Source: an uncultured bacterium (GTDB lineage: Bacteria; Bacillota; Clostridia; Oscillospirales; Oscillospiraceae). Taken from it: 33,604 nucleotides of DNA. The stretch covers positions 1-33,604 of the forward strand of contig CATKXO010000033.1 of NCBI GenBank assembly GCA_949840775.1, read 5' to 3'. The notes under the pieces were generated by a model. The model ran no database searches, had not been told where the DNA came from, and worked only from the letters and a program-made list of their open reading frames with translations. Each line of letters starts with the position of its first letter. The stretch's first letter is position 1. Below, in pieces: positions 4,460 through 13,473 of the stretch. The translations under genes were made by a program, and so were the position numbers.

Positions 4460-4885
4460 TTATTCCGCCAGCAGCCGCAGGGCCTCCAGATAGCCCTCCA
4501 GCCCGCGGCCCTTGACGGTAGCCTTGCAGGCGGCCCGAATGTAGGACACCCGGCGGTAGTCCTCCCGGCTGTCCGGGTCGGAGATGTGCACCTCCACCGT
4601 GGGGATGGACACCGCCTTCACCGCGTCCAGCAGGGCCACGCTGGTATGGGTGTAGGCCCCCGGATTGATGATGATGCCGTCCGTCTTGTCAAAGTAAGCC
4701 TGCTGGATGGCGTCCACCAGGGCCCCCTCGTGGTTGGACTGGAAAAAGCTCACCTGAACCCCCAGCCTGTCCGCCTCAGCCTGAATCATGGCTTTCAGGT
4801 CCTCGTAGGTGGCTTTTCCATAGATTTCCGGCTGACGAATGCCCAAAAAGTTCAGATTTGGGCCGTTAATCACCAGAATGTTCAC
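4460..4885 (-). CDS. aroQ: type II 3-dehydroquinate dehydratase
   Basis: This enzyme catalyses trans-dehydration of 3-dehydroquinate to 3-dehydroshikimate, the third step of the shikimate pathway, in the cytoplasm. The 141-residue length is typical of the small dodecameric type II enzyme. Seen in sequence are the N-terminal signature GPNLNFLGIRQPEIYG (residues 8-23, with the catalytic Tyr), the substrate loop NPGAYTHTS and the HISD motif with the catalytic His. It is the last gene of the aromatic operon. Its ATG lies 20 bp inside the end of the upstream aroE-aroK gene, so translation is probably coupled. A bidirectional terminator follows immediately. Confident. Confidence 0.96.
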   Translation of the reverse strand: MNILVINGPNLNFLGIRQPEIYGKATYEDLKAMIQAEADRLGVQVSFFQSNHEGALVDAIQQAYFDKTDGIIINPGAYTHTSVALLDAVKAVSIPTVEVHISDPDSREDYRRVSYIRAACKATVKGRGLEGYLEALRLLAE

Positions 4886-6107
4886 AAAAATCCCTCCAAA
4901 TCAGCGCGGCGGTCTCGTCCAGCGGCACGCTGTTGTCGATCACTGCGTCGGCGGCAGCCTGATACAGGGGCTTCCGCACCCGGTACATCTCCTCTAAACT
5001 TCCCTTCTGAGACAGGGGCCTGCCCTCTTTCGGCAGCAGGGACAGGTCCCGGCGCAGGAAGTACACCCGCCCGGTGCGGCGCATGGCGGTCCGATTTTCC
5101 TTCTGGAGCACCGCCCCGCCTCCGGTGGCGATGATCTGCCCGCCCTGGGCACAGACATCGTCCAACACCATGCTCTCCAAATGCCGGAAGGTCTCCTCCC
5201 CCTCCTGCCTGAAAATCTCCGGGATAGAGGTACCTGCGGCGTCAACGATTCTTTCATCCAAATCGACAAAAGGCTTGCCGGACAGCCGGGCCAGCTCCCG
5301 GCCTACGGTAGTCTTGCCGCAGCCGGGCATCCCCGCCAGGACGATGTTGGTCCGGTCCTGCCAGAGTTCGGCAAAGATGCGCTCCGTCTCGCTGTCTGGG
5401 ACGGTCCGGTCAGAGAACAGCTCCTCCGCCCGCACCGCCTGCCGGACCAGCATGGGCAGTCCGCCGGAGCGGCGCAGGCCCAGCTCCCCGGCCTGAAGGA
5501 GCAGATTGGTACGGCCCGGATTGTAGATCACATCCACCACCGACTCCAGCCCGGGGAACCGCGCCAAATCCACAGGCCGGCCGTCCATATTGGGCCACAT
5601 ACCTACGGGGGTGGTGTTGATTAGCACTTCGGCATCTGCGTGGCGGTCCAGGTTTTCGTAGTTGTCCGGGCCGGAGCGGGAGATCACCACAATCTCCCTG
5701 GCCCCCTCCCGGGCGGCGGCGGCACGGGCTGTAAGAGAGGCCCCGCCGCTGCCCAGAATCAGCGCTTTTTTCCCCGCCAGAGAGATGTCCGCCCGGCGGA
5801 GCATGTAGAGAAAGCCGTCGATGTCGGTGTTGTAGCCGCAGAGCTTCCCCTCCCGGCGGACCAGGGTGTTGACGCTGCCGATAGCCTTCGCGCCCTCGTC
5901 GATTGCATCGCAGTACTTCATCACCTCCCGCTTGTAGGGGATGGTGACGTTCAGCCCGCCGATATTCTCCTGCCGGAGGAAGTCCCCCAGCTGATCGGGC
6001 TCCAGCTCAATCAGGCGGTAGTCCTCACAGCCCAGGTCCCGGTGGATGGGGACGGACCAACTGTGGCCCAGCTTCCGCCCCAGCAGGCCGTAAATCTTCT
6101 CTCCCAT
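4866..6107 (-). CDS. fused shikimate dehydrogenase-shikimate kinase (AroE-AroK)
   Basis: One 413-residue polypeptide carries two successive shikimate enzymes. Residues 1 to about 245 are a shikimate dehydrogenase (AroE): the catalytic Lys is in NVTIPYK (K59), SVNT and NTDIDGF form the substrate site (N80, D95), and GSGGAS at 119-124 is the nucleotide-binding loop. Residues from about 252 to the end are a shikimate kinase (AroK): Walker A GMPGCGKTT at 259-267, DLD at 282-284, and ATGGGAV near 327-333. The protein would convert dehydroshikimate to shikimate (NADPH) and then to shikimate-3-phosphate (ATP). It starts 3 bp after the pheA stop and overlaps aroQ. The AroE half is a little shorter than free-standing AroE. 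The domain order is clear. Confidence 0.94.
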   Translation of the reverse strand: MGEKIYGLLGRKLGHSWSVPIHRDLGCEDYRLIELEPDQLGDFLRQENIGGLNVTIPYKREVMKYCDAIDEGAKAIGSVNTLVRREGKLCGYNTDIDGFLYMLRRADISLAGKKALILGSGGASLTARAAAAREGAREIVVISRSGPDNYENLDRHADAEVLINTTPVGMWPNMDGRPVDLARFPGLESVVDVIYNPGRTNLLLQAGELGLRRSGGLPMLVRQAVRAEELFSDRTVPDSETERIFAELWQDRTNIVLAGMPGCGKTTVGRELARLSGKPFVDLDERIVDAAGTSIPEIFRQEGEETFRHLESMVLDDVCAQGGQIIATGGGAVLQKENRTAMRRTGRVYFLRRDLSLLPKEGRPLSQKGSLEEMYRVRKPLYQAAADAVIDNSVPLDETAALIWRDFCEHSGD

Positions 6108-6110
6108 GGC

Positions 6111-7247
6111 TCACACTTCCGCGTAGTTGCCCAAAAGCTGGAACTGGGCACAGCTGCGCTCCATCTCCTTCAGCATAGCCAGCACGCCGGGGGCCTTTAC
6201 TGAGGTCTCCAGCTCCAGGAAGAAGATAAACTCAAAGTCGCTCCCCGCCACCGGGCAGGACTCCAGCTTGGTCATATTGATATCCATAGCGGCCAGCTTG
6301 GAGATGATCTCATACAGGGCGCCGGGCCGGTTCTCAAAGGCCACAATCAGGCTGATCCGGTTGGCGCCGGCGTAGATCACCGGGTCTTTGGTGACGCAGA
6401 TGAACCGGGTGTAGTTGTTGTCGCTGTCCTGGATGGAGCCGTTGACGCACTCCAGGCCGTACAGGGCGGCGCAGGGGTGGGAGGAGATGGCGGCGGCGTG
6501 GCGGTTTCCGCTCTCGGCCACCAGCTTGGCGGCCATGGCGGTGTTGGCGCAGGGGACCACCTTCACATCCTTCAGCCCGCCCAGGAACCGGGAGCACTGG
6601 CCGATGGCCTGCTCATGGGAGTAAATTTCGGTGATCTCCTCCTGCTTCACCCCGGGCAGGGCCAGCAGCTCGTGGCGGATACACAGCCGGGTGGACCGGA
6701 CCACGGACAGGTCGTGCTCCTGAAGCAGCTGGTACACCTTGCGCACCGAGCCGTTGGAGCTGTTTTCAATGGGCAGCACGCCGAATTTGCACAGCCCGGA
6801 CTCCACGGCGGACACCACCGCGTCGAAGCTCTTCACATAGACGATGTTCCCCCTGGGGAGCAGCCGGTCACAGGCCACCTGGGAGTTGCCCCCCTCCACC
6901 CCCTGGCAGGCCACCATGCCCGTCTGGGGGAAGACCTCGCTGTTGGAGGCCAGAGCGGCCTTGACCCGCTCCTCCACCTTTGTGGGGGCGGAGATCAGCT
7001 CCGCCTGACGGGACCGGGCCAGCTCGAAGAGGGTGGAGTACAGGTGGTAGGCGTACCGCTCCTTGTCCCCGGCCTTCTCGGTGACCTTGGCCAGAATCTC
7101 CCGCTCCCGGGTCCGGTTCAGGATGGGCAGGTTGTGCTGATTTTTGTAGTCGGCCACCTCCTCGCTCAGGGCCATGCGCTTGAGGAAGAGGTCCAGCAGC
7201 TGGTCGTCTACCGCGTCGATCCTGGCGCGAATCTCAGAAAGTTCCAT
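6111..7247 (-). CDS. pheA: bifunctional chorismate mutase/prephenate dehydratase
   Basis: This protein makes phenylpyruvate, the Phe precursor, from chorismate via prephenate. Residues 1 to about 88 form an AroQ-type chorismate mutase with the expected charged residues (R7, R24, K35, R47, E48, corresponding to the E. coli P-protein active site). The middle is the prephenate dehydratase, with the conserved NNYTRF motif. The C-terminal part is an ACT regulatory domain (GALYEIISKLAAMDINMTKL followed by ESCPV, where many homologues have ESRP), which normally mediates Phe feedback inhibition. The 378-residue length fits the fusion. The ATG has a GGAGGG SD and lies 14 bp inside aroC. The mutase domain also supplies prephenate for the upstream TyrA, which has none. 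Confidence 0.95.
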   Translation of the reverse strand: MELSEIRARIDAVDDQLLDLFLKRMALSEEVADYKNQHNLPILNRTREREILAKVTEKAGDKERYAYHLYSTLFELARSRQAELISAPTKVEERVKAALASNSEVFPQTGMVACQGVEGGNSQVACDRLLPRGNIVYVKSFDAVVSAVESGLCKFGVLPIENSSNGSVRKVYQLLQEHDLSVVRSTRLCIRHELLALPGVKQEEITEIYSHEQAIGQCSRFLGGLKDVKVVPCANTAMAAKLVAESGNRHAAAISSHPCAALYGLECVNGSIQDSDNNYTRFICVTKDPVIYAGANRISLIVAFENRPGALYEIISKLAAMDINMTKLESCPVAGSDFEFIFFLELETSVKAPGVLAMLKEMERSCAQFQLLGNYAEV

Positions 7248-8325
7248 GATTTCCCTCCAATAGTAAGTCTAAGAGTACACAGGCGGTTACCGCCTCCACC
7301 ACCGGGACGGCCCGGTGGGCGATGCAGGGGTCGTGGCGGCCGTGAATCTCCAGGTCCGCGTTCTCCATGGCGGACAGGCTGACCGTTTTCTGCGGCTTGC
7401 CGATGGACGGCGTGGGCTTGACGGCCACCCGCAGCGTGATGGGCATCCCCGTGGTAATGCCGCCTAAAATCCCGCCGGCGTGGTTGGTAGTGGTGACAAT
7501 CCTGCCATTCTCCACGGCAAAAGCGTCGTTGTTTTGGGAACCGTGGAGACAGGGGGCAACGAATCCCTCGCCGAACTCCACCCCTTTTACAGCGGGTATC
7601 CCGAAGAGCGCCGCCGCCAGCCGGTTCTCCACCCCGTCGAACACGGGGTCGCCCAGCCCGGCGGGCAGGCCGATGGCGGAGCACTCCACAATGCCCCCCA
7701 CCGAGTCCAGCTCCTTTTTGGCCCGCTCGATCAGCTTTTGCATGAGCTCACCGTTCTTATCGTTCAGCACCGGGAAGGGCTTGGTGGCAACGGCCTCAAA
7801 GAGCTCGGGGGTAGGACAGTCCGGAAGGGGCGCGTCCAGATAGTTCCCCACCGAATACAGGTGGGCCCCCACATAGACCCCCCGCCGGGCCAGAATCTGC
7901 TTGGCGATCCCCCCGGCGATGCACAGGGGGGCGGTGAGCCGCCCGGAGAAGTGCCCCCCTCCCCGCATGTCAGCCTGGCCCTTCCACTTCACCCAGGCGG
8001 TGTAGTCGGCGTGGCCGGGCCGGGGCTTGTCGGCCAGCTCCGTGTAGTCCTGGGAGTGCTGGTCGCTGTTGCGGATCATGGCACACAGGGGCGCGCCGCA
8101 GGTCTTGCCGTCCAGCAGGCCGGAGAGAATTTCCGGCACATCTCCCTCGTTTCGTGCGGTGGACAGAGCGTTTTTCCCCGGCCTGCGCCGGTCCAGAAAC
8201 CGCTGGAGCTCCTCCAGGTCGATGGCCTCCCCGGCAGGCAGACCGTCGATGTTGACCCCGATGGCCGTCCCGTGGGACTGGCCGAAGACGGACACCTTTA
8301 ATATTTTTCCAAACTCAGAGGACAT
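7234..8325 (-). CDS. aroC: chorismate synthase
   Basis: Chorismate synthase converts 5-enolpyruvylshikimate-3-phosphate to chorismate using reduced FMN, the last common step of aromatic biosynthesis. The 363-residue protein has the family N-terminus (FGKILKVSVFGQSHG), RRPG and MRGGGHFSGRLTA, and a C-terminal GGITTGMPI and RHDPC. The start is fixed by a GGAGGG SD about 8 nt before the ATG. The first codons overlap the end of aroA by 11 bp and the stop overlaps pheA by 14 bp, consistent with translational coupling along the operon. Confident. Confidence 0.97.
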   Translation of the reverse strand: MSSEFGKILKVSVFGQSHGTAIGVNIDGLPAGEAIDLEELQRFLDRRRPGKNALSTARNEGDVPEILSGLLDGKTCGAPLCAMIRNSDQHSQDYTELADKPRPGHADYTAWVKWKGQADMRGGGHFSGRLTAPLCIAGGIAKQILARRGVYVGAHLYSVGNYLDAPLPDCPTPELFEAVATKPFPVLNDKNGELMQKLIERAKKELDSVGGIVECSAIGLPAGLGDPVFDGVENRLAAALFGIPAVKGVEFGEGFVAPCLHGSQNNDAFAVENGRIVTTTNHAGGILGGITTGMPITLRVAVKPTPSIGKPQKTVSLSAMENADLEIHGRHDPCIAHRAVPVVEAVTACVLLDLLLEGNHGTF

Positions 8326-9481
8326 CCAGCTTCCCTCCTAACATACGGTAGTCATCCCAGAAATTGGGGTAGGATTTTTTCACGCACTCCGCCCCCAGCA
8401 GGGTAACGGGCGCTTTACACCGGGTGGCGGCTACGGCGGCCATCATGGCGATGCGGTGGTCGTTATGGCAGTCCACCGTCACGCCCCCCGCCAGGCCGTC
8501 CCGGCCCGTAATCCTGAGGAAATCCGGGCCCTCCTCCACCTGAGCCCCCAGAGCGTTGAACACCTGGGTTACAGAGGCCAACCGGTCGCTCTCCTTTATC
8601 CGCAGCCGGGCGGCGTTGGTCAGCCGGGTAATTTCTCCTCCCCGAAGAGCCGCCATTACCGCCAAGGGCGGTACTAAATCAGGCCAATCGGAGACATCCA
8701 GCTCCACCTCTCCCGCCCCTTGCAGCTTGAGGAAGCAGGGAACGATTTCCATATCTCCCTGGGTGGAGAAGGCGTTCAGCCCCTCAAGCTCCACCGGGCT
8801 CCCCAGGGCAATGGCAGCATACCAGAACGCCGCCTGAGACCAGTCAGCCTCCACCGTGAGGTTACAGGGCCGGTATTCCTGTCTGCCGGGGACGGCAAAA
8901 CCGTCTTCCAGCACCTCGACCCGAACGCCGAACTTGTCCAGCACATCCAGAGTCATGTCCACATAGCCCCGGCTCTCCAGGGGGGAGGTAAGGATAATTT
9001 GGCTGTCCCCGTCCAGTAGGGGCAGAGCGTAAAGCAGGCCGGTGACAAACTGGCTGGACACATTGCCGGGCAAGCGGTACTCCCCCGGTTTCAGCTCCCC
9101 CCGGAGGGTGAGCGTCCTGTTCTTCTGCTCATAGGAGACGCCTTTCTCGTCGAAGATGTCGAAATAGGGCTGCTGGGGCCGCTCCATCAGCCGGCCATGG
9201 CCGGTGAAGATACCGCCTCCCCGGAGGGCCAGGGCGATCGGGATGAGAAATCGAAGGGTGGAGCCCGATTCCCCGCAGTCCAGCAGGGGCAGACCGTCCC
9301 CCGCCAATTTCAGGGCGGCGGCACAGCGTTGGGTAGCCTCGATATCCTCAGACGAGGCCAGATTGGAGATGGTCCCGCCTCCCGCTAGCAGCTGGGCCAA
9401 GATGGCCCGGTGGGCCTGGGACTTGCTGGGGGGCGGGGTGACGGTCCCCTCCAGGGGGCCGGGGATGATGCGGATGTTCAT
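8315..9481 (-). CDS. aroA: 3-phosphoshikimate 1-carboxyvinyltransferase (EPSP synthase)
   Basis: EPSP synthase transfers the enolpyruvyl group of PEP to shikimate-3-phosphate. I place the start at the ATG overlapping the aroB stop as ATGA (9478-9481); a GTG four codons earlier is possible but less likely. The 388-residue product is shorter than the E. coli enzyme, as in many clostridial forms. Seen are PPPSKSQAHRA near the N-terminus (substrate Lys-Ser and Arg), CGESGSTLRFLIP in place of the more common GNxGTxxR PEP loop (the glycine before the S/T is retained), LPGNVSSQFVTGLLYALP, and the C-terminal DHRIAMM. Confidence 0.95.
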   Translation of the reverse strand: MNIRIIPGPLEGTVTPPPSKSQAHRAILAQLLAGGGTISNLASSEDIEATQRCAAALKLAGDGLPLLDCGESGSTLRFLIPIALALRGGGIFTGHGRLMERPQQPYFDIFDEKGVSYEQKNRTLTLRGELKPGEYRLPGNVSSQFVTGLLYALPLLDGDSQIILTSPLESRGYVDMTLDVLDKFGVRVEVLEDGFAVPGRQEYRPCNLTVEADWSQAAFWYAAIALGSPVELEGLNAFSTQGDMEIVPCFLKLQGAGEVELDVSDWPDLVPPLAVMAALRGGEITRLTNAARLRIKESDRLASVTQVFNALGAQVEEGPDFLRITGRDGLAGGVTVDCHNDHRIAMMAAVAATRCKAPVTLLGAECVKKSYPNFWDDYRMLGGKLDVL

Positions 9482-10560
9482 TCCAGCGCCCACCCCGCTT
9501 CGATGACCGATTGCAGCTGGATCACAGGGATGGTTTTCAGCTCGCAGTGTCCGATCTTACTGGGCACCACAATGGTGATGTTATTCCCCGCCCGCTTCTT
9601 GTCAGACAGGGCGGCTTTCGCTAAGGCCTCGGGAGGGTACTCTGTAGAAGAGGGCAGTCCCAGGCTTTCCACGGCGCTCTCAATGCGGTCCGCTTCCCAT
9701 GTCTGCTTCGCCCCGTCTGTCAGCCACCCCAGGTTTTCCGTGGCTCGGGTCATGATGGCCAGCCCCGCCGCCACCGCGTGACCGTGGGGGATGGTAAAGC
9801 CGCTGCACTTCTCAATGGCGTGGCCGATGGTGTGGCCCAGGTTGAGGAGCTTCCGCTCCCCCTGCTCCTTCTCGTCCCGCTCCACTACGCCGGCCTTGTA
9901 GGCCACACAATGGGCAACGATCTCCTCCAGCATAGAGTCCCTCAGCCCGCCCTCCATTTTGGCGAACAGCCGCTCATCACTCAGTACAGCCGTCTTGAGC
10001 GCCTCGGCGGCCCCGTCGGCAAAGACGTGGCGGGGCAAGGTCTTGAGGCAGTCCGTATCACAGATGACGGCGGCGGGCTGGAGAAAGGCCCCGGCCAGGT
10101 TTTTCCCGGCGGACAGGTCGATGGCCGTCTTGCCCCCCACGGAGGAGTCCACCGCCGCCAGCAGAGTGGTGGGCAGCTGGACATACTTCACCCCCCGCAG
10201 GTACAGGGCGGCGGCCAGCCCCACCATGTCCCCGGTGACGCCGCCCCCCAACGCGGCCACGCAGCCGGTACGGGTGAGCTGCTCCTCCGCCAGGAACTCC
10301 AGAATGTTGGACAGGGTGTGGAAGTTTTTGCTCCCCTCCCCGGCGGGGAAGACATAGGTGCTGACCTTGTATCCCGCCTCCAAAAGGGAGTTTTTTACCG
10401 TCTCCAGGTACAGGGGGGCCACATTGCTTTCGGTCACCACCGCCATGTGGCACAGGGGAACTGCCTCCTTCAGCCGGGGGCCGCACTCCGCCAGCAGACC
10501 GGGGCCGATGGTCACGTCGTACTCCGGATTGGTGCGGACATGGATGGTTTGGATGGACAT
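9478..10560 (-). CDS. aroB: 3-dehydroquinate synthase
   Basis: AroB cyclises DAHP to 3-dehydroquinate using NAD+ and a divalent metal. The frame is open further upstream, but the start at 10560 (MSIQTIHVRTNPEYDV) is preceded by AAAAGGAG at a good distance and gives the usual 360-residue length. Diagnostic stretches are GEGSKNFHTL, GGGVTGDMVGLAAALYLRG (NAD binding), PTTLLAAVDSSVGGKTAIDL, and LLNLGHTIGHAIE with metal-ligand His residues. It ends in an ATGA overlap with aroA. Confidence 0.96.
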   Translation of the reverse strand: MSIQTIHVRTNPEYDVTIGPGLLAECGPRLKEAVPLCHMAVVTESNVAPLYLETVKNSLLEAGYKVSTYVFPAGEGSKNFHTLSNILEFLAEEQLTRTGCVAALGGGVTGDMVGLAAALYLRGVKYVQLPTTLLAAVDSSVGGKTAIDLSAGKNLAGAFLQPAAVICDTDCLKTLPRHVFADGAAEALKTAVLSDERLFAKMEGGLRDSMLEEIVAHCVAYKAGVVERDEKEQGERKLLNLGHTIGHAIEKCSGFTIPHGHAVAAGLAIMTRATENLGWLTDGAKQTWEADRIESAVESLGLPSSTEYPPEALAKAALSDKKRAGNNITIVVPSKIGHCELKTIPVIQLQSVIEAGWALE

Positions 10561-10588
10561 ATTTGGACGCTCCTTTTCTGATTTTGTG

Positions 10589-10610
10589 GGCCCGCCGCCC
10601 TCGGCGGGCC
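10589..10610 (-). repeat. intercistronic GC hairpin between tyrA and aroB
   Basis: GGCCCGCCG/CGGCGGGCC with a 4-nt loop and no following T-run lies in the only sizeable gap (105 bp) within the aromatic operon. It could be an mRNA processing or stabilising element; it does not look like a terminator. Confidence 0.4.
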
Positions 10611-10665
10611 ATGGGAGGGGCCAGGAGGTTTTGAAAGATGACCCGCCCAGGGGGGGCCACATGTT

Positions 10666-11502
10666 TTAATTCCCCCCCGCGCTGGCCTTCAGCTCCCGGC
10701 CCTCTTTGAGGAGGTCGTGGAGCCGCCCGGCGTCCCGTTCCTCCAGGGCGGAGCGGTACTCCTCCAGGTGGCCGATGAGGACCTCCAGCTCGTGGGTGAG
10801 GTAGTCCGCGTCGTCCAGAAACAGCTCAGTCCACATGTCCTCGTCCAGCCGGGCCACCCGGGTCATATCCTGAAAGCTCCCCGCCGAGAACCCCCGCCGT
10901 CGCTGGGCCTCGGGGGATTTGACGTAGGCGCTGGACACGATGTGGGCCAGCTGGGAGGTAAAGGCGATGATCCGGTCGTGCTCCTCCGGCTGGGAGAAGG
11001 TGAGCTTGGCAAAGCCCACATCCAGGAAGAAGGTCTGGAGGGTTTCCAGCAGCTTCATGTCCGTCCGCTTGTCCGGGGTGAGGATCATAGAGGCCCCCGC
11101 GTACAGGTCGTCGGTGGAGGCGGTAAAGCCCCCCCGCTCCCTTCCGGCCATAGGGTGGCCGCCGATGTAGGCAAAGCCCCGCTCCGCGGCGATGGGGGCA
11201 ATCTGCTCCACCACCACCCGCTTCACCCCGCACAGGTCCACCAGGATGGCAGACCTGCTGATTTCGGCCGCGTGGGCCCTCACCCAGTCCACCGCCGCCT
11301 GGGGACGGATGGCTGCCAGCACCAGATCGCACTGAGGGAGGGTCTCCCCGTTAAGCGGGCCGTCGATGGCCCCGCACATCCGGGCCAGCATCATGGTCTC
11401 CTGGTCCAGGTCGACGCCGTAGACGGTGTGGCCGGTGCGGTTTTTGATGCTCTTGGCCATGGACCCCCCGATCAGACCCAGGCCGACGATTCCCACTTTC
11501 AT
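10666..11502 (-). CDS. tyrA: prephenate dehydrogenase
   Basis: This enzyme oxidatively decarboxylates prephenate to 4-hydroxyphenylpyruvate, the Tyr precursor. The start at 11502 (MKVGIVGLGLIGGSMAKSI) overlaps the DAHP synthase stop as ATGA; the open frame upstream has no homology. The 278-residue protein has a Rossmann GxGxxG at residues 7-12 and HPMAGRERGGF, where the His and the Gly-rich loop belong to the active site. The C-terminal helical domain is present, but I see no C-terminal ACT domain. Control by Tyr would then have to come from attenuation or from DAHP synthase. Confidence 0.93.
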   Translation of the reverse strand: MKVGIVGLGLIGGSMAKSIKNRTGHTVYGVDLDQETMMLARMCGAIDGPLNGETLPQCDLVLAAIRPQAAVDWVRAHAAEISRSAILVDLCGVKRVVVEQIAPIAAERGFAYIGGHPMAGRERGGFTASTDDLYAGASMILTPDKRTDMKLLETLQTFFLDVGFAKLTFSQPEEHDRIIAFTSQLAHIVSSAYVKSPEAQRRRGFSAGSFQDMTRVARLDEDMWTELFLDDADYLTHELEVLIGHLEEYRSALEERDAGRLHDLLKEGRELKASAGGN

Positions 11503-12512
11503 GCTTCCATCCCCCTGATCGTGGCGTGGAGGGCCAGCAGCTTCCTGGCCAGAGGATCGAAAGCCTCTGGCTTGAGGGACTGGGGACCGTCGCACAGGGC
11601 GTGGGCGGGGTCGTTGTGGACCTCAATTTGAAGCCCGTCCGCCCCGGTGGCCACCGCCCCCATGGCCAGGGGCTCCACCAGCCAGTATTTTCCGGTGGCG
11701 TGGCTGGGATCCACGATGATGGGCAGGTGGGTCAGCTTGCGCAGAACAGGGATGGCCGCCAGGTCCAGGGTGTTGCGGGTGTAGCTCTCAAAGGTGCGAA
11801 TCCCCCGCTCGCAGAGGATTACCTTCTCGTTGCCCCCGGCCATGACGTACTCGGCGCTCATCAGCCACTCCTCATAGGTGGCGGACATGCCCCGCTTGAT
11901 CATTACCGGCTTGTCCTGGTGGCCCACCGCCTTGAGCAGGTCGAAATTCTGCATGTTCCGGGCGCCGATCTGGATCACGTCCACATCCTTGAACAGAGGC
12001 AGGTGGGTCACGTCCATCAGCTCAGTGACGATGGGCAGGCCGGTCTCCGCCCGGGCGGCCTTCAGATACTCCAGGCCGGTCTCCCCCAGCCCCTGGAAGG
12101 CGTAGGGGGAGGTGCGGGGCTTGAAGGCCCCGCCCCGGAGCATGGTGGCTCCGCTGGCCTTTACCGCCCTGGCAATGGCCACCACCTGGTCCTCGCTCTC
12201 CACCGAGCAGGGCCCGGCCATGATGGTCAGGTTCCCCCCGCCGATCTGGGTATTGCCTACCTGGATGACGGTGTCCTCCGGGTGGAATTTCCGGTTGGCG
12301 TTCTTATAGGGCTCCTGGACCCGCTTCACGTCCTCCACGATGTCCAGGGCGGCGATGAGGTCGATGTCCAGCTTGGAGGTGTCCCCCACCAGGCCCAGGA
12401 CGGTGTTGGCCTCGCCAATGCTGGTGTGGATGGTGATGCCCTTCTCCTGGAGCCAGGAGATCAGGCTGTCCAGCTGATTGGGATTGTGGTCGTGCTTTAA
12501 AATGACTATCAT
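11499..12512 (-). CDS. aroF: DAHP synthase (type I-beta with ferredoxin-like regulatory domain)
   Basis: This enzyme condenses PEP and erythrose-4-phosphate into DAHP, the first step of the shikimate pathway. The 337-residue protein has an N-terminal domain of about 65 residues (MIVILKHDHNPNQLDSLI...) of the ferredoxin-like type known from the Thermotoga enzyme, where it binds Tyr or Phe for feedback. The catalytic barrel follows, with MAGPCSVES, LRGGAFKPRTSPYAFQGLG, KRGMSATYEEWL and DPSHATGK. It is the first structural gene of the operon, with AGGAGG 8 nt before the ATG, directly after the attenuator. The symbol follows common Firmicute usage; aroG or aroH would be equally valid. Confidence 0.95.
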   Translation of the reverse strand: MIVILKHDHNPNQLDSLISWLQEKGITIHTSIGEANTVLGLVGDTSKLDIDLIAALDIVEDVKRVQEPYKNANRKFHPEDTVIQVGNTQIGGGNLTIMAGPCSVESEDQVVAIARAVKASGATMLRGGAFKPRTSPYAFQGLGETGLEYLKAARAETGLPIVTELMDVTHLPLFKDVDVIQIGARNMQNFDLLKAVGHQDKPVMIKRGMSATYEEWLMSAEYVMAGGNEKVILCERGIRTFESYTRNTLDLAAIPVLRKLTHLPIIVDPSHATGKYWLVEPLAMGAVATGADGLQIEVHNDPAHALCDGPQSLKPEAFDPLARKLLALHATIRGMEA

Positions 12513-12548: not shown

Positions 12549-12577
12549 AAAAAACCCGCGGCCGGTTCGGCCGCGGG
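12549..12577 (-). terminator. attenuator terminator in aromatic operon leader
   Basis: On the minus strand, CCCGCGGCCG pairs with CGGCCGCGGG (plus-strand arms 12555-12564 and 12568-12577, 3-nt loop), followed directly by TTTTTT. It is a textbook intrinsic terminator but lies between the leader peptide and the first structural gene, 37 bp before the aroF ATG. It is therefore an attenuator, not an operon end. Confidence 0.88.
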
Positions 12578-12624
12578 TCGTCATGTACAAGATGGCTTCT
12601 GCCAAACCAAGCTCACATGCCCGC
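12573..12624 (-). promoter_or_regulatory. predicted antiterminator pairing
   Basis: In the minus-strand RNA, GCGGGCATGT (plus 12615-12624) overlaps the leader peptide stop codon. It can pair with ACATG and CCCGC (plus 12573-12586), leaving a 4-nt bulge. The CCCGC arm is the 5' arm of the attenuator, so this pairing excludes the terminator. A ribosome reaching the leader stop would cover the GCGGGCATGT strand and let the terminator form. The complementarity is seen directly; the mechanism is inferred. Confidence 0.65.
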
Positions 12625-12723
12625 TCTTTCAGCCAAACCGAAACAAGCCTTACCCCAAAAGTAGGTAAAGCCGTAAGTAAAGCTAAAATAGCGGTATTCA
12701 GCACTGCAAGTCTGTCTGGTCAT
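12613..12723 (-). CDS. aromatic-rich leader peptide of the shikimate/Phe/Tyr operon
   Basis: This is a 36-codon reading frame with GAGGG as SD 8 nt before the ATG, ending in TGA. Residues 10-23 read YRYFSFTYGFTYFW, and a further Phe is at 28. In total there are 4 Tyr, 5 Phe and 1 Trp codons in 36, with the cluster ending about 40 nt before the stop. It precedes a mutually exclusive antiterminator/terminator pair and the DAHP synthase gene. By analogy with pheL- and trpL-type leaders, scarcity of charged tRNA-Phe or tRNA-Tyr would stall the ribosome in the cluster and permit read-through. The peptide itself probably has no function after synthesis. An internal 8-bp hairpin (GCTTTACC/GGTAAGGC, plus 12664-12671 and 12647-12654) sits on the aromatic codons and could be the pause structure. 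Confidence 0.82.
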   Translation of the reverse strand: MTRQTCSAEYRYFSFTYGFTYFWGKACFGLAERAGM

Positions 12724-12747
12724 GTGTCAGTCCCTCTTTGCTTGTGG

Positions 12748-12762
12748 GTTATAAGAAGCATA
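12748..12762 (-). promoter_or_regulatory. probable -10 region of the aromatic operon
   Basis: TATAAC (12748-12753) lies 25 bp before the leader ATG. Just upstream is TGGTATGCT (extended -10 type, TATGCT at 12757-12762), which has TTCACT 17 bp before it. Neither -35 is strong, so the exact start is uncertain. Confidence 0.4.
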
Positions 12763-12785
12763 CCACTTTGCTCAGGAAAAGTGAA

Positions 12786-12823: not shown

Positions 12824-12912
12824 TATTTGTGCTTTCAGCCGGCCTCTCACGCATATTTTTCCCTCTGGCGGAATAGATTGGCAGGGACGGTATGAGAGAG
12901 GAGCTTTTGCTG

Positions 12913-13473
12913 ATGCACCTGTATGAGCTTTTTATGATCGCGGTCAGCCTGTCCATGGACGCTTTCGCCGTCTCCATCTGCAAGGGGCTGTCCGCCGGCC
13001 GCCCCCGGCCAGAGCACTATTTGAGCTGCGGCGGCTGGTTCGGCAGCTTTCAGGCCCTGATGCCCCTTTTAGGCTGGCTGCTGGGGATGCGGTTTCAGCA
13101 CTTCATCGTCTCGGTGGACCACTGGGTTGCCTTTATCCTGCTGGGGATGATCGGCCTCAACATGATAAAGGAGGCCCGGAGCGGCGGAGCAGAGGAGCTG
13201 GGCACCTCCTTCTCCCCCCGGTCCATGCTCCCCCTGGCGGTGGCCACCTCTGTAGACGCTCTGGCGGTGGGGATCACCTTCGCTTTCCTCCAGGTGGAGA
13301 TTCTTCCCGCCGTCCTGCTCATCGGCGCGACCACCTTCACCCTGTCTGCCGCCGGCGTAAGGGTGGGCTCGGTCTTTGGAGGGCGGTTCAAAAGCAAAGC
13401 CGAGCTGCTGGGAGGGCTGATTCTCATGGGGATCGGGACAAAAATTTTGCTGGAGCATACACTGCTGGCCTGA
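12913..13473 (+). CDS. mntP: manganese efflux pump MntP
   Basis: MntP is an inner-membrane Mn(II) exporter with six transmembrane helices. The product shows the internally repeated signatures MDAFAVSICKGL near the N-terminus and SVDALAVGITFAF in the second half, each with the membrane Asp expected to bind Mn. I choose the ATG at 12913 (MHLYELFMIAVSLS) because GAGGAG lies about 9 nt upstream and it matches usual MntP N-termini; an ATG at 12892 is in frame with a poorer SD. It is divergent from the aromatic operon and has its own downstream neighbour promoter. Family confidence is high. Confidence 0.92.
   Translation: MHLYELFMIAVSLSMDAFAVSICKGLSAGRPRPEHYLSCGGWFGSFQALMPLLGWLLGMRFQHFIVSVDHWVAFILLGMIGLNMIKEARSGGAEELGTSFSPRSMLPLAVATSVDALAVGITFAFLQVEILPAVLLIGATTFTLSAAGVRVGSVFGGRFKSKAELLGGLILMGIGTKILLEHTLLA

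Follow-up and report, generated by a model that had tools for sequence, protein, structure and literature searches.

Control of amino acid operons by a translated leader peptide is best known from Proteobacteria, where the pheL- and trpL-type attenuators (Rfam Phe_leader and Trp_leader) are ribosome-mediated. Leaders that read more than one kind of residue, such as ilvL, are also known. T-boxes sense uncharged tRNA by binding it directly and have no leader peptide. The portion of PMC9413887 available to us describes His leader-peptide attenuators of the histidine operon in 17 genomes from the Bacillus cereus group, Eubacteriales, and Erysipelotrichales. The nearest published case that we found for a leader before aroF is uORFC-13-1, which the accessible part of PMC8632094 gives as 24 examples from Acholeplasma and environmental sequences only, with attenuation proposed by the authors.

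Here we describe a leader before aroF in a 33,604-nucleotide stretch of DNA from an uncultured member of the Oscillospiraceae (the window). The aroF leader is a new family, and by every feature that could be tested in silico its mechanism is classical ribosome-mediated attenuation. We recognized no description of a clostridial aroF leader in the literature searched, which largely left out subscription journals. As in pheL and trpL, the leader peptide is enriched in the amino acids under control, 1:2, 2:3, and 3:4 helices can be drawn, and a terminator stands before the first gene. Unlike them, the aroF element is predicted to read two residues together and to control the common pathway along with both end branches; its antiterminator uses the terminator loop, its stop codon comes after the core of segment 2, and it matches no Rfam family. 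It resembles uORFC-13-1 in having a short upstream ORF with at least one Phe codon, followed by a terminator and aroF; it differs in that the available text of PMC8632094 gives a Phe codon as the only control feature, and it is by this description that we set the two apart. With the His attenuators of Firmicutes, as far as PMC9413887 could be consulted, it shares leader-peptide control in groups that also use T-boxes. T-boxes (RF00230) likewise precede aroF in other members of the class, and none was found in the window.

The features of the window are as follows, in the order in which the minus strand is read.

12757 to 12785, minus strand: putative promoter, TTCACT, 17 nt, TATGCT, with a TG extended -10 at 12765-12764 (read by eye, coordinates checked)
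12732 to 12737, minus strand: leader Shine-Dalgarno (SD) sequence AGAGGG (from the sequence and the SD-like pattern in close relatives)
12613 to 12723, minus strand: leader ORF (ORF reading and conservation in relatives)
12682 to 12694, minus strand: segment 1 outer arm CCGCTATTTTAGC, partner 12633-12621 (minimum free energy fold, this window only)
12664 to 12672, minus strand: segment 1 inner arm GGCTTTACC, partner 12654-12646 (hairpin scan, consensus fold)
12646 to 12654, minus strand: inner arm partner GGTAAGGCT, strongly conserved (alignment, consensus fold)
12630 to 12640, minus strand: segment 2 core CGGTTTGGCTG, the 5' strand of the antiterminator, codons 28-32 (alignment, pairing tests)
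12615 to 12624, minus strand: segment 2 extension GCGGGCATGT, the pairing of the preliminary description (alignment pairing counts)
12593 to 12609, minus strand: small hairpin TGGTTT...AAGCCA in the spacer separating segment 2 from segment 3, conserved in only part of the relatives
12563 to 12586, minus strand: segment 3 ACATGACGACCCGCGGCCGAACCG, the terminator 5' arm and loop with the preceding flank (pairing tests)
12549 to 12579, minus strand: intrinsic terminator hairpin and six-T tract, segment 3:4 (fold, hairpin scan, alignment)
11502 to 12512, minus strand: aroF, 3-deoxy-7-phosphoheptulonate synthase (over the NCBIfam cut-off)
10666 to 11595, minus strand: tyrA, prephenate dehydrogenase (below curated cut-offs)
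9478 to 10662, minus strand: aroB, 3-dehydroquinate synthase (NCBIfam match)
8315 to 9493, minus strand: aroA, 3-phosphoshikimate 1-carboxyvinyltransferase (277.1 bits, cut-off 287.25)
7234 to 8325, minus strand: aroC, chorismate synthase (NCBIfam match)
6111 to 7247, minus strand: pheA, chorismate mutase-prephenate dehydratase (below curated cut-offs)
4866 to 6107, minus strand: aroE-aroK fusion (shikimate dehydrogenase and shikimate kinase matches in two halves, below curated cut-offs)

The seven aromatic genes lie on one strand and overlap or stand a few bases apart. The tyrA ORF as listed overlaps aroF, and its family match starts at residue 32. Several of the matches fall below the strict NCBIfam cut-offs; the kind of gene to which each match points is unambiguous. 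The preliminary description had called this the whole shikimate operon. Seven adjacent aromatic-pathway genes are indeed present, and no 3-dehydroquinate dehydratase is among them. The end products of the operon are Tyr and Phe, in agreement with the codons of the leader.

On the minus strand, a putative extended -10 promoter is followed by the SD sequence, the leader ORF, the terminator, and aroF. The leader ORF has 36 codons and a TGA stop (12723-12613), and its predicted product is MTRQTCSAEYRYFSFTYGFTYFWGKACFGLAERAGM*. Nine of the 14 residues at codons 10-23 are aromatic, so that frame, SD sequence, and aromatic run all stand as first described. We thus have a short ORF with start signals and clustered, conserved codons for the pathway products, predicted to be translated. 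A standard consensus scan (threshold, 9 of 12 matches) returned no promoter; the extended -10 was spotted by eye, and the same pattern recurs in 17 of 28 close loci, a count that includes the window. The attenuator reading had been said to depend on where transcription starts, and this likely promoter places the predicted start upstream of the leader. A divergent gene for an MntP-like manganese efflux pump (12892-13473, plus strand; match below curated cut-offs) shares the intergenic region with the leader.

We collected 110 aroF loci and examined 106 distinct ones, with three duplicates and one short locus dropped. Named relatives with aroF loci include Oscillibacter, which NCBI places in the Oscillospiraceae, class Clostridia. 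Within 350 nt of aroF, 89 of the 106 loci have an ORF in which 6 or more of 14 residues are aromatic; 70 reach 7 or more, and 50 reach 8 or more. The corresponding rates in random windows were 2.4%, 0.65%, and 0.04%, from 2443 windows of 350 nt drawn from the same first 110 loci and not from the class sample described below. The aromatic frame that the preliminary description wished to see conserved is therefore kept in relatives, in 70 of 106 loci. An ATG start could be assigned in each of the 33 distinct loci whose aroF is at least 70% alike (the close set), and an SD-like pattern, which itself helped to choose the starts, precedes 31 of these 33 leaders (absent in L014 and L020). For the 28 closest loci, pN/pS came to 0.61 across the full ORF and to 0.46 within the aromatic run.

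The peptide sequence varies widely between groups, while the Tyr and Phe content stays. This bears on an explanation by nascent-peptide arrest, in which the aromatic peptide itself would stall the ribosome on free Tyr, Phe, or another ligand and act through the same antiterminator; tnaC is a known case of ligand-responsive arrest. The leader does look translated, and in close relatives it ends in a well-kept GKAYFGLAE-like stretch, as such a peptide might. However, the need to encode the RNA helices can account for that stretch, and divergence of the peptide with retention of its Tyr and Phe content is what codon sensing expects. We see only a slight chance that arrest by the peptide is at work.

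Two groups of loci stand apart. Most of L098-L110 carry a second leader type (FAAFFYGYFYFFGF...KVKVLFAANN) and come from genomes labelled as one genus; in several of them the pairing stretch starts about 40 nt upstream of the stop, and by eye a FAA...FAAN repeat resembles the 1:2 helix. Four loci with an aromatic leader and aroF 62-67% alike (L043, L069, L071, and L074) lie on contigs titled Oligosphaeraceae, Kiritimatiellae, Lentisphaerae, and Thermoguttaceae, which reflects either transfer or mis-binned contigs.

As for the amino acids read, the 20-residue cores of 89 leaders contain 25.6% Phe, 16.9% Tyr, and 0.8% Trp. Tyr is present in 89 of 89 leaders and Phe in 88 of 89, whereas Trp occurs in 12 of 89 cores. 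The genome to which the window belongs (G000, 97% complete) gave no match to trpE and a weak match to trpB, below the cut-off. Because of this, that genome probably has no Trp synthesis from chorismate, and we predict a Trp auxotroph. The signals are probably Tyr and Phe. Sensing of Trp has no support, given 0.8% of the cores, no trpE, and no trpB over the cut-off; thus, of the residues first proposed, Tyr and Phe were borne out and Trp is unlikely.

The terminator lies between the leader ORF and the first gene. It is a 12-bp hairpin (12579-12553) with six T at 12554-12549, placed just before aroF as previously described. The hairpin noted on the aromatic codons also exists, at 12672-12646, with 10 pairs in the scan. 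The antiterminator core is an 11-bp helix between 12640-12630 and 12573-12563, the latter being the upper 5' arm of the terminator and its loop. The pairing first proposed for the antiterminator, GCGGGCATGT (12624-12615) with ACATG-ACGA-CCCGC (12586-12573), is present and includes the first base of the leader stop, at which it had been said to begin; it turned out to be an extension, the core being the helix formed by CGGTTTGGCTG. Folding of the 214-nt region gave a stability z of -4.8, and none of 200 dinucleotide shuffles was as stable, which answers the folding check suggested at the outset.

We aligned 33 elements (32 distinct sequences) for helix statistics. In the terminator, 98.7% of cells were paired, with double changes at 7 of 10 pairs. 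Standard pairs filled 95.1% of cells in the 11-bp 2:3 core, compared with 13-58% when the strands were slid by one to three columns. For the GCGGGCATGT extension, the figures were 79.0% and 27-52% (32 distinct sequences). Variation in the core was mostly one-sided (A or G opposite U), with changes on both sides in 2 of 11 pairs, and the number of pair types in the 33-element alignment was no higher than in shuffles. Covariation of the stems, which the preliminary description had named as a check, was seen at those 7 of 10 pairs in the terminator and 2 of 11 in the 2:3 core. The RNAalifold consensus displayed the 1:2 helix and the terminator and did not display the 2:3 helix.

The 2:3 core takes in the terminator loop, which the terminator stem does not constrain. 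We therefore applied a random-loop test to 84 loci and obtained p <=0.05 in 22 of 28 near loci and 17 of 56 far loci, with combined p values of 4e-19 (near) and 4e-14 (far) over loci that are related and so not independent. None of the 11 loci L098-L102 and L105-L110 reached p <=0.05. A duplex test against dinucleotide-shuffled upstream sequence was weak, with 30 of 84 loci reaching p 0.05. The terminator finder gave no hairpin in 13 of 106 loci, 5 of them with a leader, and picked the wrong one in some loci (e.g., L003); the random-loop test shares its terminators. From these comparisons, the same predicted design of segment 2 and loop recurs in loci with other sequences.

A simpler account would be a constitutive terminator that only lowers basal expression, overlapped by the ORF through chance. 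The hairpin is strong, and its predicted probability in ribosome-free window RNA is 0.98. Against this account, separate groups each show a loop that matches their segment 2, and relatives retain the aromatic content. We lend this account scarcely any credence.

Segment 2 starts about 25 nt before the leader stop in most close relatives of the window. In the window, too, about 25 nt separate the start of segment 2 from the stop codon downstream, and a ribosome at the stop would leave part of the segment uncovered, unlike E. coli trpL, in which a ribosome at the stop covers segment 2. In L019, L023, L047, and L052, the leader stop comes first and segment 2 starts 3-4 nt beyond its first base, as in the classical trpL layout.

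To model stalling, we grew the RNA to the terminator loop and stepped a ribosome along the leader codon by codon, each time masking the RNA as far as 12 nt beyond the codon in the A site. The folds are at equilibrium and are silent on kinetics. In the window, upstream RNA held segment 3 with a probability of 0.14 without a ribosome and 0.63-0.86 for stalls at codons 9-25, compared with 0.08-0.54 for codons before 9 and 0.19-0.56 after 25. The stalls predicted to cause antitermination (codons 9-25) span the whole aromatic run. Across 33 loci, mean values were 0.41 for free RNA, 0.60 for codons 1-3, 0.77 for the aromatic codons, and 0.30 for the last codons and the stop. Aromatic stalls were at least 0.1 above free RNA in 28 of 33 loci, above the last codons in all 33, and above codons 1-3 in 21; in the other 5 loci, they were not 0.1 above ribosome-free RNA. 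In L087, the ribosome-free probability of the terminator was only 0.22. The folds point to an antiterminator that excludes the terminator and is freed by a ribosome at the control codons.

The ORF, the terminator, the alternative helices, and their conservation were established in silico, and from them we infer transcription start, translation, stalling, and the effect on the operon. RNA polymerase would start near 12750, and a ribosome would then translate the leader. With sufficient Tyr and Phe, the ribosome would clear the aromatic run and leave; segment 1 (codons 10-20) could then pair with segment 2, the 3:4 terminator would form, and transcription would end at about 12549. If charged tRNA-Tyr or tRNA-Phe were scarce, the ribosome would stall in codons 10-23 and cover segment 1. 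Segment 2 (CGGTTTGGCTG plus the extension) would then pair with the terminator 5' arm and loop, no terminator would form, and aroF-tyrA-aroB-aroA-aroC-pheA-aroEK would be transcribed. Stalling by scarce charged tRNA is carried over from classical attenuators. Taken together, we put at roughly 90% the reading that this element would be a ribosome-mediated transcription attenuator sensing tyrosyl- and phenylalanyl-tRNA, as the modeled folds suggest. The attenuator of the preliminary description is thus supported by conservation, helices, and stall folding, and it would sense charged tRNA as the classical attenuators do.

We built a covariance model (R1) from 33 aroF-leader elements, with no gene information in it. 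At E 0.001, it matched 62 of 300 family genomes and 15 of 391 genomes of the class, taken as Clostridia (the window's own genome is in both). A first set of 30 family places comprises 29 upstream of aroF and 1 upstream of tyrA, and 28 of them differ from every sequence in the model. The family search gave 69 places, of which 50 were examined (30 plus 20) and 19 left out. Among the 50, 39 precede aroF, 2 precede aroB, 4 precede an acyl-CoA ligase gene, one each precedes tyrA and a phenylacetate-CoA ligase gene, and 3 have none of these genes downstream. The class search added 13 places, 9 of them upstream of aroF and 4 lacking a leader. Weaker matches are partly false, since 7 of the 33 further places have no aromatic leader (L160, L165, L167, L176, L178, L180, and L182).

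An even sample of the class gave 77 aroF loci from 82 other genomes with an aroF match, after exclusion of incomplete matches in G417, G434, G449, G468, and G362; one copy was taken per genome, not always the best scoring. An aromatic leader (at least 7 in 14) without a T-box motif was present in 37 of the 77 and a T-box motif in 12; a further 4 had 6 in 14, and 24 had neither. Three of the 12 T-box-motif loci also have an aromatic ORF of at least 7, probably by chance. Rfam scans covered 40 of the 77 loci, and the remainder were judged by motif only. One set of 20 loci had a T-box in 11 at E 0.001, of which 8 passed the gathering score; the other 20, 16 of which bear a leader, had none.

These counts bear on a third explanation, a leader that binds a ligand or protein (riboswitch, TRAP-like, or T-box) and in which the ORF is incidental. 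In other families of the class, aroF does have a T-box upstream (the 12 of 77 by motif and 11 of 20 scanned), and the window's own genome has T-box matches at other sites, 11 in all and 6 over the cut-off. However, the window matches no Rfam family at the gathering score, T-box RF00230, Phe_leader, and Trp_leader included; 20 class loci, 16 of them leader-bearing, gave no match at E 0.001; and the aromatic content of the ORF is far above chance. We consider such a leader very improbable. A T-box over the region, which the preliminary description had wanted checked, is thus absent, and a T-box or other Rfam element in the window is ruled out by 0 matches at the gathering score. Its premise that T-boxes are the rule does not hold at aroF in the class sample, where 37 of 77 genomes have a leader and 12 a T-box motif. 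For the attenuator family, this is unusually broad use at one gene.

Genomes of the same family carry aromatic leaders before ligase genes (L150, L152, L153, L154, and L157, and also L183-L186). In L150, the leader precedes a paaK-like (phenylacetate-CoA ligase) gene, and in L152, L153, L154, and L157, it precedes an acyl-CoA ligase gene, identified by running the L153 protein against NCBIfam, the other three being alike by eye. Such leaders include MNYSVTRTQQAFSFSFRFTGFFFGKAYMSLSDNG and MNRMIFSGYYYYYRAYFAAGSVLVG. Pairing of segment 2 with the terminator arm and loop is unbroken in L152 and has a mismatch or shift in L150, L153, L154, and L157. The ligase gene is followed by IorA and IorB, both over the cut-off, in L185 and L186, with a PaaK-like ligase further on in L185 (match below the cut-off); in L184, it is followed by an MFS transporter and a PaaK-like ligase (PaaK match below the cut-off). 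Of the genomes with ligase leaders, G163, G228, and G231 also have aroF, and aroF was not found in G078, G160, and G226, which are 64-82% complete. The ior locus of the window's own genome (L191, G000:C36) has no aromatic leader; a small ORF just upstream of it resembles, by eye, a TrpR/YerC-family regulator.

In the part of PMC13285125 available to us, indolepyruvate oxidoreductase (IOR) is cited for the conversion of phenylalanine to phenylacetate in Bacteroides, and IOR beside an AMP-forming ligase is said possibly to serve aromatic amino acid synthesis, with a ligase assay as support. The aromatic leaders before CoA ligase genes, some of which are followed by ior or PaaK-like genes, suggest an arylacetate salvage route to Tyr and Phe.

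We give even odds to a wider proposal: that the Tyr/Phe attenuator is the commonest control of aroF in Clostridia, ahead of T-boxes, and possibly ancestral, and that it has also spread, to aroB and tyrA operons and to operons for arylacetate salvage (acyl-CoA ligase, IorA, IorB, and PaaK), where it would mark IOR as biosynthetic. In the class sample, leader-peptide attenuation is commoner than the T-box at aroF (37 versus 12 of 77). The aroF leader would give a large bacterial group, many of whose carriers come from animal guts according to record titles, a widely conserved and easily tested regulator at the entry to aromatic amino acid synthesis. Its control codons tell which product is made, which lets the element hint at the direction of a pathway that is otherwise ambiguous, and a CoA ligase-IorA-IorB operon with a Tyr/Phe leader in this family predicts that the pathway there runs toward synthesis.
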